Origin: Spirochaeta sp. LUC14_002_19_P3
GTDB taxonomy: Bacteria > Spirochaetota > Spirochaetia > DSM-2461
Reading direction: 5' to 3'
Length of the DNA stretch: 34,023 bases
Assembly: GCA_002084135.1 (NCBI GenBank)
Contig: MUIB01000086.1
Coordinates: 1 to 34,023, forward strand
The notes beneath the pieces are model-generated. The model was not told where the DNA came from, made no database searches, and saw only the letters and a list, made by a program, of their open reading frames with translations. Numbering within the stretch: position 1 is the stretch's first letter; each line of letters starts with the position of its first letter. Shown here in pieces: positions 2,264 through 32,283 of the stretch. A program made the position numbers and the translations under genes.

Positions 2264-2407
2264 GGGCACCTCTAAAAACCCATTTAGTTCTTGACTCGAA
2301 CTTTTCAGCCGCTCTTAAGTTGTCAAAATGCTCACGTAGCTTAAGCTTTTGCCGCCCGACAAAAAATTTCTCCGTCAATTTCCTAAAGCGGTTTTTTAGA
2401 GGTACCC
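2264..2407. repeat. MITE-like repeat copy A (144 bp, imperfect terminal inverted repeats)
   Basis: Left end GGGCACCTCTAAAAACC, right end GGTTTTTTAGAGGTACCC (near reverse complement). Body closely matches 11076-11231. Confidence 0.85.
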
Positions 2408-5019: not shown

Positions 5020-5098
5020 GGCTCATCTGGGGCGGTTTCGGGGGGTGGGGAGGTGTCGGGTATTGAATTAAATCAAAGTAAGGTTCATCATCTTTTCC

Positions 5099-8938: not shown

Positions 8939-10237
8939 ATGAAGGGCACCTCTAATAAAATTCATGCTTTGTGCGCGATTCTGATCTGCGCAATAGCCCT
9001 GGCAGCGGGAGCGGAGCCGCGTTTTGAATTTCTCTCTTTTGCCGATTATTACGGCGGCATAGAACCAGGCGATGGCTACCAGAACTTACGGAGCCGTATT
9101 TTTATGCGGCCCACCTTTGGCGGCATCCATGACAGCAGCGGCTTTGAATGGCAGCTTTCGGCCAACCTGTGGGCGCAGCCTTTGGGGGAACCGAATTACA
9201 TAAACCTTTGGGACATTCCTTACGAAAGCTATATGTTTATGCCCTTTGATTTTTTCGATATTACTCTGGGCTTTAAAATTCTTTCTTACGGCTTTTCCGA
9301 CGTGAGTGGCCCGCTCAATGTAACCAACAGCGGCAATGCCATTCCCTATGGTTTAACGGAGGCCTTCGACGGGCGGCGTCCCGATCCCCTCTTGCAGTTA
9401 AAATTTTATCCCTCTTTCGAGGATACTATTGAGCTTACCTACATTCCCATAACCCGCCCGGACAGGGAACGCGGCGGCAGTATTGCCCTCCCCGATTCCA
9501 ATGACACCCTGGAATGGCGAGATGATTCCTGGCTCACCGATCCAGACACCATGCATTCCCTGTTTGCTGTTTACAGCCATTACGGCGAAAAGATTGATAT
9601 GCAGTTCTTTTACGGCTGGTACACCAGCCACAAACCGGACTTCCTTATCCCCGAAATGACAAACAGCATTGCCTCGGTTATTAAACCGGTATACCGCAAA
9701 AAGCACACCTTCGGCTTTGCCTATTCCCTGCGCTTATGGACCATGACTCTCGCCCAGGACATAGCGTTTACCATTACCAGCGACCTGGCTGGCACCGACA
9801 TTGGTGCCCAGAATTCCGAACTTACCGTAAATACTCAGCTCTTGGTGAATCTGCCCTGGAATATTTTAAGCCAATACAGCCTGGTATACGCCTTCTTTCC
9901 CAACCATAACCAGCACAGTGTTGGCACCGACAGCGCGGCGAGTGCCTACCTGGCGGAGGAAGTGCAGGGCTTCCACACACAGCCATTCCAGCACATAGCC
10001 TACATTATTACCCATTTCGAGAAAACATTTCTGCGGGAAAAGCTGAAAACATCCCTGAATATAGGCTTCTTCTTTTCGCCAAAAATTTATTTTGGCCCGC
10101 AAATTACCTATAACATAAGCGATTACTGGCAATTCGAGCTGGGCGCGGACATTACCCTCCTCGAACCGCCGGATAACGACTTACGGCGCAACACGGCAAA
10201 TGACAGTTTTTATGTAAGGCTGCTGTACCGCTATTAA
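8939..10237 (+). CDS. Putative outer-membrane beta-barrel protein of the MMPL operon
   Basis: Signal peptide, aromatic-rich alternating strands, C-terminal …YVRLLYRY ending in an aromatic residue; 2 nt after upstream stop. Confidence 0.72.
   Translation: MKGTSNKIHALCAILICAIALAAGAEPRFEFLSFADYYGGIEPGDGYQNLRSRIFMRPTFGGIHDSSGFEWQLSANLWAQPLGEPNYINLWDIPYESYMFMPFDFFDITLGFKILSYGFSDVSGPLNVTNSGNAIPYGLTEAFDGRRPDPLLQLKFYPSFEDTIELTYIPITRPDRERGGSIALPDSNDTLEWRDDSWLTDPDTMHSLFAVYSHYGEKIDMQFFYGWYTSHKPDFLIPEMTNSIASVIKPVYRKKHTFGFAYSLRLWTMTLAQDIAFTITSDLAGTDIGAQNSELTVNTQLLVNLPWNILSQYSLVYAFFPNHNQHSVGTDSAASAYLAEEVQGFHTQPFQHIAYIITHFEKTFLREKLKTSLNIGFFFSPKIYFGPQITYNISDYWQFELGADITLLEPPDNDLRRNTANDSFYVRLLYRY
8944..8956. 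repeat. Repeat-family terminus-like sequence (copy F) inside a signal-peptide coding region
   Basis: GGGCACCTCTAAT; 12 nt identical to the left end of copies A and B. Confidence 0.4.
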
Positions 10238-10241
10238 ACGG

Positions 10242-11087
10242 GTGGATACCGTAAGCGTTATTATTCCCACCTATAACCGTAGCATTATCCGTGCGCTGGA
10301 ATCGGTAATGGCTCAAACCTGGCGGAACCTGGAAATAATTATTGTCGACGATGGCAGCACTGACGGCAGCACCGATGGCACACGGATGAAAGCATGGATA
10401 GAACAGTCGGCGGTTCGGATTATCCGCACCGCTAACCGGGGTGTCGCCGCCGCACGGAATACTGGTGTGGAGGCCGCCGCCGGGCCCTGGATAGCCTTTC
10501 TCGATTCGGACGACACCTGGGCGGAATGCAAGCTGGAGAAACAAATGCGCCATATCCGCGCTCATCCCGATATTCGCATAGTCTATACCAGCGAGCGCTG
10601 GATACGCCGAGGTGTGCGGGTAAACCCGCCGAAGGCATACCGAAAATACGGCGGCGATGTTTTTCTCCACTGTCTGCCGGTCTGTCTGATTGCGCCTTCA
10701 TCGGTGCTGATGCAGCTTAGTTTGTTCAGGGAAATGGGAGGATTCGATCCAGCCTATCCTGTTTGCGAGGATTACGATCTTTGGCTGAGAATTTGCAGTC
10801 TTTATCCGGTGGGCTTAGTGGATGAAGAACTGACTGTGAAATATGGCGGCCATGCCGATCAGCTTTCCGCCTCATCGCCTGTAATGGACTACTGGCGGAT
10901 AAGGGCATTGTGCGGCATTCTCCAAACCCGGAAGCTCTCTCCCCCGCACCTTGAGGCCGTTCGGCGGGAAATAATCCGCAAAGCTAAAATTTTTCTTCCC
11001 GGCTGCCTCCGGCACGGACGCAGCGAACTCCATGAACAAACCACGGACATAATCCGCGCATCGGGAGTAACTCCAGGGCACCTCTAA
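10242..11087 (+). CDS. Glycosyltransferase family 2
   Basis: VSVIIPTYNRS, VDDGSTDGSTDGT, FLDSDDTW motifs; GTG start 4 nt after previous stop. Confidence 0.92.
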   Translation: MDTVSVIIPTYNRSIIRALESVMAQTWRNLEIIIVDDGSTDGSTDGTRMKAWIEQSAVRIIRTANRGVAAARNTGVEAAAGPWIAFLDSDDTWAECKLEKQMRHIRAHPDIRIVYTSERWIRRGVRVNPPKAYRKYGGDVFLHCLPVCLIAPSSVLMQLSLFREMGGFDPAYPVCEDYDLWLRICSLYPVGLVDEELTVKYGGHADQLSASSPVMDYWRIRALCGILQTRKLSPPHLEAVRREIIRKAKIFLPGCLRHGRSELHEQTTDIIRASGVTPGHL

Positions 11088-11231
11088 GAAAACCATTGAG
11101 TTCTTGACTCGAACTTTTCCGCCGCTACTGCATTGTCAAAATGTTCACGTAGCTTAAGCTGGCTTAAGCTTTTGCCGCCCGAGGTAAAAATTTCTTCGTC
11201 AATTTCCTAAAGCTGCTTTTTAGAGCTACCC
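11076..11231. repeat. MITE-like repeat copy B (156 bp)
   Basis: GGGCACCTCTAAGAAAACC…GCTTTTTAGAGCTACCC; same body as copy A with a ~10-nt internal duplication (CTTAAGCTGGCTTAAGCTT). A further end-like GGTGCCC lies at 11237-11243. Confidence 0.85.
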
Positions 11232-12263
11232 TTGTAGGTGCCCTTTATATGTTTTTTCAAGATTTTTACTGTAAGGCAACGATTTTATGTAATCTTCCAT
11301 GAATTGCCAGTCGGGATTGCCTTTAGCATCCACGGGAAGTTTAATATCGGAATTAGGCATTCTCATAGGTCTCCATTTCCTTCCATACGCCCACTTTAAC
11401 TTTTCTAGTTCGATAAGAGTGCATAAGAACATAGCGATATATGGAGAAAGTCCTTTATCCTTGATGTAGACAGGATTGACACTATGTGAGCAAGTAATCT
11501 CATAAGGATGATAAAATGCGTTTCCAACTGACCCGTCATTTGAAATTGTCAAGCAGTTAAAGAAGCATTTACTATCTAAATCGTGATTTTTTTCGCTTCC
11601 ATCTTTGGATGTGTCTTCTATCTCTTCTATAGAGTGCCACGATCTTATCCCGTTATTAAATTCAGATGCTCCAATAAAAGGAATATTTCCCAATGGGTCT
11701 ATATCTGGTTTTTTGTTATAATACCCATTTTTTATATAAAAAATATCCCCATACTTAAACCATTCCCATTTTCTATCACTTAACTTCAAATCGTTCTCAA
11801 AAAAAGGTTTAATTATAGGTTTTTGTGGAATTTGTATTTTCTCCACCCAATTAGGAATTTCTGAGATGTCAGGAATGTGTATATCCGCTAGAGTCTTGTT
11901 GGCTTGTCGCCCATAGCTATACCGATATTTGTTAGCTCGTAAAATCATGCAGTAGTAGAGCATTTGTCTATCGGTCATTTTCAATTTAGGTGATAGATAT
12001 AGTAAATCCCGCCCGCTGTAATATTCATTTTTTTGCAAAAACGATTCTAAAACAGAACCTCCAACAGAAACAGATATTGTATTAGCCGGATTAGGTTCTA
12101 TATCTTCTATTTCTTTTACAAATCCAACACAGCCGTTATTTGTTGAACCGCGAGCGATAAAAGGAATTCCTGTATCTGATTCTTCCATTTTGTAGTATTC
12201 AAGATTAACACCATATTGAATGTTAAACAAATCACTAACTTTTTTCATATAATCTATCTTCAT
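11226..12263 (-). CDS. Restriction-modification specificity subunit (BcgI-B / HsdS-like)
   Basis: 345 aa with two TRD-like halves (GIPFIARGSTNNG and NIPFIGASEFNNG); overlaps the end of the methylase gene. Confidence 0.85.
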   Translation of the reverse strand: MKIDYMKKVSDLFNIQYGVNLEYYKMEESDTGIPFIARGSTNNGCVGFVKEIEDIEPNPANTISVSVGGSVLESFLQKNEYYSGRDLLYLSPKLKMTDRQMLYYCMILRANKYRYSYGRQANKTLADIHIPDISEIPNWVEKIQIPQKPIIKPFFENDLKLSDRKWEWFKYGDIFYIKNGYYNKKPDIDPLGNIPFIGASEFNNGIRSWHSIEEIEDTSKDGSEKNHDLDSKCFFNCLTISNDGSVGNAFYHPYEITCSHSVNPVYIKDKGLSPYIAMFLCTLIELEKLKWAYGRKWRPMRMPNSDIKLPVDAKGNPDWQFMEDYIKSLPYSKNLEKTYKGHLQG

Positions 12264-14121: not shown

Positions 14122-14213
14122 ACATTACAGCCCTCCATCTCTAAAATATCGGCGATCCCATTTATAATGTCATTGTCCCACTTTTGGTGAATCAGTATAT
14201 ATCTTCCCTTACT
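14118..14213 (-). pseudogene. Orphan C-terminal reading frame directly upstream of the R-M gene
   Basis: Open frame SKGRYILIHQKWDNDIINGIADILEMEGCNV* with no usable start; its TGA overlaps the methylase ATG (ATGA). Confidence 0.35.
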
Positions 14214-14991
14214 TCATAACATTGTACAATGCGTCAGTCATCGCGTAGGCGGCTGCGGTATTACCGGTTTCCATGGCATAATCCATCATTCTCTTTATGT
14301 AATTCATTACGTCCATGGTAAGGTACACAAGGAATCCTTCATTGCCTTCCCTCTCCGCATTATCTCCGGCCAGCGATGTACGGATTAACGCGATAATTTC
14401 TGCGTTCACATTGAGCTGATTTTTAAATTCTTCGAGGGGATTGGGAACGAAGATTTTCACCACATCATAACGCTTGTAACGGAAAAAGAGCTCCTCGCAG
14501 GCCAGCCAATACTCCGGTGCCAACAGGGGCTGCTCATCCATGAGCCGTTCAAACAGCGCAATGGTTTTTTCCTCCTCCCCAAGCCGCCAATTTATATCGA
14601 CAACATCTCCAAACTGGTCAATATTACCCCGTGAGTGTATCACCTGGCTGGCTAATTCATTTCGTATTGCGCGTAAGCGTTCCAGAGCAGGCGGATAAAT
14701 CGCGCCAAATTCCATCCAATCCGAAAGAAAATATGAGGATCGCACCCCCGACAGGGAAGAATCGTAGTCCAGAGCATGGGAGAAAAACCATTCAAAGCGA
14801 TCCAGTGCCTCAGCATGGCGCTCCTCGCCCAGCATCGCCATGGTTCTCTCATGGTAGATACCAATATCCGCCGCTTCCTCGCCGCTGGGCAGAAGGGCTT
14901 GCTCCATACCGCGTCTTTGATACTCTCCCGCGGGCCGGGCCGCCACCGCAAACCCAATAAACAGAAGCAGCAGGGCCAGATAAACACGCAT
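14209..14991 (-). CDS. Hypothetical exported protein, helical/TPR-like
   Basis: 260-aa ORF with signal peptide MRVYLALLLLFIGFAVAARPAG and alpha-helical repeats. Confidence 0.65.
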   Translation of the reverse strand: MRVYLALLLLFIGFAVAARPAGEYQRRGMEQALLPSGEEAADIGIYHERTMAMLGEERHAEALDRFEWFFSHALDYDSSLSGVRSSYFLSDWMEFGAIYPPALERLRAIRNELASQVIHSRGNIDQFGDVVDINWRLGEEEKTIALFERLMDEQPLLAPEYWLACEELFFRYKRYDVVKIFVPNPLEEFKNQLNVNAEIIALIRTSLAGDNAEREGNEGFLVYLTMDVMNYIKRMMDYAMETGNTAAAYAMTDALYNVMK

Positions 14992-15007: not shown

Positions 15008-15030
15008 GGGCACCTCTAAGGTTCCATTAG
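15008..15030. repeat. Partial repeat-family terminus (copy E)
   Basis: GGGCACCTCTAAGGTTCCATTAG, compare GGGCACCTCTAAAAACCCATTTAG in copy A. Confidence 0.6.
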
Positions 15031-16199
15031 CCAAAAGTGCTTACATCGGCTTTGTAATCAATGCCCTGCCAGCCGAAGCCGTGCAGCTTCATAAAATCAT
15101 TCCGGAAACCGGCAATGTCGGTAAGCTGTTCCAGATTGTCCGTTGTAACGGAATCCCAGTTGGACTGAATTTCCTTCTGAACATCCTCACGCATTTCCCA
15201 GTCGTCCATTCGCACAAGGCCTTCGCTGTCGCGGATGGTGCCTTGTTTGCCGTAAACCTTGCTTGCCAGAAGCCGGTACATCTGCTCGATGCAACCTTCA
15301 TGGATGCCCTTGGCTTTCATTATTTTAAACAGCAGGGAAATGTAGAGCGGCACCACCGGTATTACGGAACTGGCCCGGGTTACCAGAGCCTTGTTTACTG
15401 ATACAAATGCCTCGCCGCCGTGAGCAGACAATGTATCGTTCAGGGTTTTGGATGTTTTTTCCAGATGCTCCTTGGCGGCCCCAATGGTTCCAGCCCGATA
15501 CACGGCATAAGTTACTTCAGGGCCAATGTAGGAATAGGCCATGGTTTTCGCGCCTTTGGCCAGAACGCCGCCCTTGAGGAGTGCATCCACCCACAGGGTC
15601 CAGTCATCGCCGCCCATAACTTTGATGGTTTGGTTCTTTTCATCGTCGCTGGCCGGTTCAATGGAGGCTTCCCCCACCGTGCCTTTAAGAAAATCCACCG
15701 ATTTGGCGGTGTAGGTTTTCCCCAGCGGCTTGAGTACCGACTTGTAGGCGGTGCCGCTATCAGGATCCGTGCGAACCGGCGAAGCAATGGAGTATACCAC
15801 GAGGTCAATCTCGCCAAAAAGCTCCTTTATCCGCTGAACAACAGCCGCGCGGGTTTGATGGGAGAAGGCATCCGCATTCATGCTTTCAGCCCTTATGCCA
15901 GCGGCTTTTGCCGCTTCATCGAAGTACTTGTTATTGTACCAGCCGGGGCTGGCAGGTTTGCGTTCGGAGGGCTCCCGCTCAAAGGAGACATTGAGGGTGC
16001 CAGCTCCGCCGCCAAAGGCCGCCGCAATGCGGGTGGCCAGTCCGTAGCCGGTTGAACCGCCTATAACAAGAACCCGTTTGGGCATGGTAATCGGCGGCTG
16101 TTTCTTCACATAGGCAATCTGCTCTTCAAGGGCTTTTTTTAGCCCTCCTGGATGGGCGGTGAGGCAAACTCCACCGATAATTTTTGGTTCTAAAATCAT
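15027..16199 (-). CDS. fabV: Trans-2-enoyl-CoA/ACP reductase FabV (TER)
   Basis: IIGGVCLTAHPGG N-terminus, VLVIGGSTGYGLATRI cofactor motif, WYNN, Y-x8-K (YRAGTIGAAK). Confidence 0.95.
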   Translation of the reverse strand: MILEPKIIGGVCLTAHPGGLKKALEEQIAYVKKQPPITMPKRVLVIGGSTGYGLATRIAAAFGGGAGTLNVSFEREPSERKPASPGWYNNKYFDEAAKAAGIRAESMNADAFSHQTRAAVVQRIKELFGEIDLVVYSIASPVRTDPDSGTAYKSVLKPLGKTYTAKSVDFLKGTVGEASIEPASDDEKNQTIKVMGGDDWTLWVDALLKGGVLAKGAKTMAYSYIGPEVTYAVYRAGTIGAAKEHLEKTSKTLNDTLSAHGGEAFVSVNKALVTRASSVIPVVPLYISLLFKIMKAKGIHEGCIEQMYRLLASKVYGKQGTIRDSEGLVRMDDWEMREDVQKEIQSNWDSVTTDNLEQLTDIAGFRNDFMKLHGFGWQGIDYKADVSTFG

Positions 16200-19855: not shown

Positions 19856-19882
19856 GGGCAGCTCTAAAAAACCCATTGAGTT
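19856..19882. repeat. Partial repeat-family copy D upstream of fabH
   Basis: GGGCAGCTCTAAAAAACCCATTGAGTT matches the left end of copies A/B, then diverges. Confidence 0.7.
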
Positions 19883-32227: not shown

Positions 32228-32236
32228 GCGGGGGCA

Positions 32237-32283
32237 GCGGAAAAGTTCGAGTCAAGAACTAAATGGGTTTTTTTGAGGTGCCC
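32237..32283. repeat. Partial repeat-family copy C (inverted relative to A/B)
   Basis: Reverse complement GGGCACCTCAAAAAAACCCATTTAGTTCTTGACTCGAACTTTTCCGC matches the left ~47 nt of copies A/B. Confidence 0.85.

Follow-up and report, generated by a model that had tools for sequence, protein, structure and literature searches.

A short sequence with inverted ends that occurs several times within one bacterial contig raises the question of whether it is a mobile element and, if so, how it moves and what becomes of its copies. The window examined here, i.e., the whole stretch of 34,023 nucleotides that was analysed, is the entire contig C13 of the draft genome of Spirochaeta sp. LUC14_002_19_P3, which has 1,945,966 bases in 177 contigs and is 77.5% complete. 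In a preliminary description, a MITE-like, non-autonomous element had been proposed, with a full copy (2264-2407), a near-full copy (11076-11231), end fragments at 15008, 19856 and 32237-32283, and a possible further end at 8944. The coordinates of the full copies (A and B) were right, and the two can be aligned over their whole length, the centre of B being longer by 10 bases. The fragments and the possible end are also real: eight matches to the end motif GGGCACCTCTAAAAA with three or fewer mismatches were found in the window, while 1.23 were expected and at most 5 were obtained in 100 shuffled sequences. The features are listed in Table 1.

Table 1. Copies and fragments of the element in the window.
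Feature	Position	Strand	Description
MITE copy A	2264..2407	+	144 bp, short-centre form; in the gap after an ORF that ends at 2141, before the next gene
MITE copy B	11076..11231	+	156 bp; extra central AGCTGGCTTA
Truncated copy	32233..32283	-	left end and about 50 bp of the element
Lone left end	19856..19882	+	27 bp (GGGCAGCTCTAAAAAACCCATTGAGTT); TTAA immediately before
Lone left end	15008..15019	+	12 bp (GGGCACCTCTAA); between ORFs 14209-14991 and 15027-16199
Lone left end	8944..8955	+	12 bp (GGGCACCTCTAA); just past the start codon of ORF 8939-10237; TGAA before

Copy A has the ends GGGCACCTCTAAAAA and TTTTTTAGAGGTACCC, and its terminal inverted repeats form 26-nt arms that are 81% complementary. 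With a profile HMM built from 28 copies, copies A and B scored 161 and 154 bits, and they diverge from the family consensus by 2.8% and 9.1%, respectively. Copy B sits between the convergent ORFs 10242-11087 (+) and 11226-12263 (-), and the stop codons of both ORFs are supplied by its ends. The truncated copy corresponds to element positions 1-51 (nhmmer, E 2.3e-12 in 380 kb). The lone ends at 8944 and 19856 have one mismatch each to the end motif, and that at 15008, the weakest, has three, its first 12 bases being exact. It had also been remarked that no clear target-site duplication is visible, which is true of both full copies in the window (GTAA/AAAA for A and TCCA/TTGT for B), and that no transposase is present; contig C13 gave zero transposase matches, and the only two in the genome fall on contigs C34 and C135.

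Abundance and mobility of the family

The copies are not limited to the window. When copy A was used as a query against the same genome, at least 40 near-full copies were found, 88-100% identical among the matches listed, and the whole genome contains 524 matches (265 + 259) to the end motif GGGYACCTCTAAAAA at two mismatches or fewer, compared with 11 (7 + 4) for the reversed control. Detailed counts were obtained from 919 kb of the genome, taken in stretches (L numbers) of which the first 20 were partly picked for matches. Since the 245 end motifs in this sample scale to 519 per genome, close to the 524 counted, the sample is representative. An HMM of the element gave 107 non-overlapping matches in it, of which 70 are full length; by scaling, the whole genome would have some 148 full copies (about 150), or about 200 with fragments included. 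This is a dense MITE burst, with about one element per 10 kb and one lone end per 17 kb.

The full copies are short (122-196 bp, mostly 144-161), non-coding and without a transposase gene. Their median divergence from the consensus is 3.5%, suggesting that the spread was rather recent. The sequence was not found in 8 genomes of the same genus and 32 more distant ones, so that a non-mobile element conserved in distant species is not what was seen there; a 31-bp match in one genome of the same genus (G001) is located within coding sequence rich in GC and was rejected as a copy, being taken as chance. Phage records, plasmid records and viral contigs gave no match, and a literature search with the end sequence gave no result.

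The element is mobile. An exact 4-bp target duplication flanks 23 of the 70 full copies, while 1.9 were obtained with shuffled flanks, and duplications of 2, 3 or at least 6 bp showed no excess among the first 55 copies. The favoured target has T as its first base and A as its last. MITE insertions are seen inside a transposase gene and inside other MITE copies, and paralogous empty sites exist at duplicated loci. Together with the repetition, the sharp ends and the ends in common with an IS5-family element (see below), these duplications bear out the assignment to MITEs. An exact duplication is present at only about one-third of the full copies; for the others we infer decay and recombination. 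Two sites have direct repeats exceeding the usual 4 bp: a full MITE at L051:15360-15547 is bordered on both sides by the 14-bp repeat ATAAATATACTTGG, and a lone end at L103:1480-1510 by the 11-bp repeat CCCTTTTTTTG.

The element is hypervariable in its centre, which exists as a 17-base short form, as several forms of 26-27 bases and, in about one-fifth of the copies, as a degenerate heptamer array such as TCACTTTTCATTTTTCAC. Similar tandem arrays of 7 bp were observed elsewhere in the genome, and arrays both inside and outside MITEs (L091:4124-4190, L077:14286-14321, L070:12404-12482, L032:11112-11144 and others) have degenerate heptamers such as CAATTCT, TCACCCT and GAATTGA. Fifteen of 53 array calls (period 7, 14 or 21) are in or adjoining a MITE, and some period-21 arrays resemble coding repeats. 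Cyanobacteria and Beggiatoaceae are likewise reported to have heptamer repeats (PMC4679880).

Two other explanations of the repeats were weighed against a mobile element. The copies could belong to a REP/ERIC-like functional intergenic repeat with an RNA job (terminator, processing or stability) and without any transposon, as their position and folding may suggest. Only one of the 70 full copies lies inside an ORF predicted with a simple codon-score script, without a gene finder, at a coding fraction of 82%, and convergent gene pairs hold 15 of the 49 classifiable copies, compared with 76 of 603 gene pairs overall. In addition, stop codons can come from the copies, as at 11076-11231, and the whole element folds into a long hairpin (-52.9 kcal/mol and z -5.1 on the minus strand; z -3.1 on the plus strand). 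However, selection against harmful insertions would equally give intergenic and convergent placement, and the placement fits selection rather than function. Covariation as a REP/ERIC-type repeat would have it is nearly absent, a two-sided, pair-keeping change being found in 1 of 31 predicted pairs among 32 aligned copies; the centre is hypervariable; and none of the Rfam families matches the window. The 4-bp duplications, empty sites, insertions into the transposase gene and into other copies, and IS5-type ends show that the element is mobile, and a maintained RNA role is unlikely, such a functional repeat being in our judgement very improbable.

An artefact of assembly or binning might be suspected from the contig ends, 22 of 134 of which carry an element within their last 150 bp, compared with an element share of 1.6% of the sequence. 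This excess means that the assembly breaks at MITEs, and the burst thus accounts for where the draft genome breaks. However, short-read assembly breaks at genuine repeats too, and most copies are located deep inside contigs with unique flanks, sharp ends and target duplications; we regard the chance of an artefact as negligible. Other repeats are present as well. A second high-copy intergenic repeat occurs around GCCTGCCTGCCGAAGCCTCGGCGCAGGCAGGTG (L035:11690-11865 and L105:15800-15860, among others), with GCCTGCCTG present 38 times in the 919-kb sample, compared with 5 occurrences of the reversed sequence. A 26-bp sequence, GTGGACAGTTAACTTGACAAGTTACC, was found six times with unrelated continuations (L081:90-130, L079:88-122 and 5054-5096, L047:86-120, L041:773-807 and L090:12391-12425) and may represent one end of a further mobile element.

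The probable parent, an IS5-family element

The Pfam models DDE_Tnp_1 (PF01609) and DUF4096 (PF13340) match nothing in the genome, and the parent was reached via its ends instead. Two IS remnants, at L049:11977 and L117:18969, have the same ends as the MITE; they are the only two copies of the parent IS in the genome, and both are broken. The L049 transposase matches DUF772 (E 1e-18), and its 204-aa fragment passes the IS5 model NF033581 with 141.5 bits at a cut-off of 140; the gene is cut by a MITE copy after 204 residues, near the contig end. In L117, 81 residues of the transposase start are kept and then joined to the apparent gene end, the middle being lost. The DDE catalytic domain is therefore mostly missing from both copies, by the MITE cut in L049 and by the internal deletion in L117. 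Of the full IS with matching ends that the preliminary description had proposed to look for, IS5-family remnants were thus found, but no intact transposase in this 77.5%-complete assembly. Among 25 further genomes from the family, none gave a relative with an E value of 1e-20 or lower. A candidate IS of about 1 kb at C7:1723-2719, suggested by paired ends, was rejected, because it consists of two MITE copies around an endonuclease III-like gene.

Relatives were found in an Ignavibacteria genome (L124, 49% identical) and in a Sulfurospirillum genome (L126, Sulfurospirillum sp. UBA12182, 48% identical), and the ends of both are GGGCAC(C/T)TCTAAAAA. In L124, which has the layout TTAA-GGGCACTTCTAAAAAC...GTTTTTAGAAGTGCCC-TTAA, one side of the gene carries TTAAGGGCACTTCTAAAAAC and the other side its perfect reverse complement, each flanked by TTAA. 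In L126 (TTAT-GGGCACCTCTAAAAA...TTTTTAGAGGTTCCC-TTAT), the two ends read GGGCACCTCTAAAAA and GGGAACCTCTAAAAA, and TTAT lies next to each. These IS of the NF033581 (transpos_IS5_4) type have the same ends and the same kind of 4-bp AT-rich duplication (TTAA, TTAT) as the MITE. They differ from it in being about 1.24-1.28 kb long with a transposase gene, whereas the MITE is 144-155 bp long and non-coding, and little is common beyond the ends. Judged from its ends and transposase sequence, the parent is an IS5-family element, and its transposase probably mobilised the MITE in trans.

The main MITE resembles the local IS in its ends and in a stretch of about 38 bp, 79% identical to the right end of the IS, and in nothing further. 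Since the interior of the MITE is unlike the remnant IS, its direct descent from the IS in L049 and L117 is only a candidate reading. Other MITE-like derivatives, with the right end of the same IS, are present in L045, L078 and L084.

Lone ends and the life history of the element

Many ends in the genome stand alone. In the 919-kb sample, 76 lone ends were counted (reversed control, 9), and 54 unpaired ones were left after removal of paired and IS ends. Their origin can be followed at duplicated loci, where three clear pairs of scarred and empty sites, paralogous within the genome rather than from sister strains, were found. At locus 1, L100 and L115 are empty (CTTAACAATAATTG), L088 is scarred (CTTAA-GGGCACCTCTAA-CAATAATTG), and L042 is occupied by a full element (...GGTACCC-TTAACAATAATTG). 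Locus 2, within L077, has the empty state TTCAAAAATAAC and the scarred state TTCA-GGGCACCTCT-AAAAATAAC, and at locus 3 the empty L044 (GCCCAAAACAATCC) corresponds to the scarred L041 (GCCCAA-GGGCACCTCT-AAAACAATCC). The net insert is 10-12 bp at all three loci, and each join falls on 3-5 bases common to the interior of the left end and to the right target duplication with its flank. Both the join position and the insert length at all three loci are predicted by deletion of a full element between short repeats.

Lone ends could instead be separate short mobile units or target motifs, such as aborted insertions of about 10 bp, and their number, together with T at position -4 in 44 of 54 and A at -1 in 41 of 54, as in a real insertion target, would agree with this. 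The breakpoints, however, lie exactly on the 3-5 bp repeat, as predicted by deletion of a full element and not by insertion of a short unit. Moreover, TAAA, which equals the inside of the end, stands to the left of 15 of the 54 lone ends compared with 6 of the 70 full copies (Fisher p = 0.007). We therefore consider short mobile units or target motifs improbable. The simple deletion model does not account for every case, and several lone ends, for instance ones preceded by TTAA, extend deeper into the element than it predicts.

With loss of full elements as the preferred reading, the ends might promote their own loss, because the A-tract resembles the AT-rich duplication and so would favour frequent microhomology deletion of the hairpin, leaving scars of 10-12 bp; we hold the chances of this to be about even. 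If true, scars may outlast the element in their hundreds, the genome would be a countable record of insertion and loss, and genes would sometimes receive in-frame inserts of four codons. The lone end at 8944 is possibly such an in-frame scar, by analogy with the paralogous loci elsewhere in the genome; if so, the scar-free start of the ORF (window 8939-8980) would be MNKIHALC in place of the present MKGTSNKIHALC, so that four residues would have been added at the beginning of an apparent signal peptide. The end at 15008 may also be a scar, the weakest of the window set, and as a single case could be a chance match.

The best explanation for the whole, which we consider highly probable, is an IS5-type MITE that was moved in trans, spread in one species and decays by three routes. 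An element of 144-155 bp (as much as about 196 bp where the centre is longer) that lacks its own transposase would be moved by an IS5-family transposase recognising the GGGYACCTCTAAAAA ends, AT-rich TNNA targets being cut with a 4-bp stagger. It spread within one species and survives almost exclusively between genes. Recombination between copies would give the many copies with unmatched flanks; by nesting, one copy is inserted into another; and deletion from the A-tract (TCTAAAAAA) on the inner side of the left end to matching A/T bases in the right duplication and flank would leave a scar, namely a lone end 10-12 bp long. This deletion presumably occurs by replication slippage across the hairpin, and RecA-independent loss at a TAAA target would yield TAAA-GGGCACCTC-TAAA. 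L077 and L085 have the left flank and TTAA in common and different right flanks, and recombination between copies probably reshapes the genome also. The family may no longer be able to move, given that the two transposase copies found are both broken. The target duplications and the parent IS go beyond the preliminary description, and what it listed as end fragments are for the most part remnants and scars left by deletion.

Comparison with known MITE systems

The IS5-type MITE family described here is a new representative of a well-known kind and has an unusually high density; what is notable in it is this density, the scars and the hypervariable centre. Because empty, occupied and scarred states are visible and the parent IS is known, the loss of a bacterial MITE, usually invisible, becomes countable.

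Three systems invite comparison. MITECca01 of Cardinium cOegib, a strain-restricted burst of 169 copies making up 3.5% of the chromosome (PMC9769881), is likewise mostly intergenic, invades other mobile elements and has ends in common with a resident IS; its parent, however, belongs to the IS982 family and intact copies remain (PMC9769881), whereas the present one is of the IS5 family and both copies found are broken. BrickBuilt of Porphyromonas gingivalis, with 19 copies and a 23-bp repeat unit (PMC4596501), is similar in being intergenic and species-restricted and in having an interior tandem repeat. In contrast to it, the present family is far larger, and its arrays are of heptamers and occur in only about one-fifth of the copies. 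In Haloquadratum walsbyi, a MITE is present for which all matching transposase copies are broken, and deletions occur at direct repeats of 4-20 bp (PMC3119063). The lack of an intact transposase and the deletions at short direct repeats are as found here, but that system is archaeal and its deletions concern strain-specific sequence generally (PMC3119063), whereas here the MITE is removed and its end is left.
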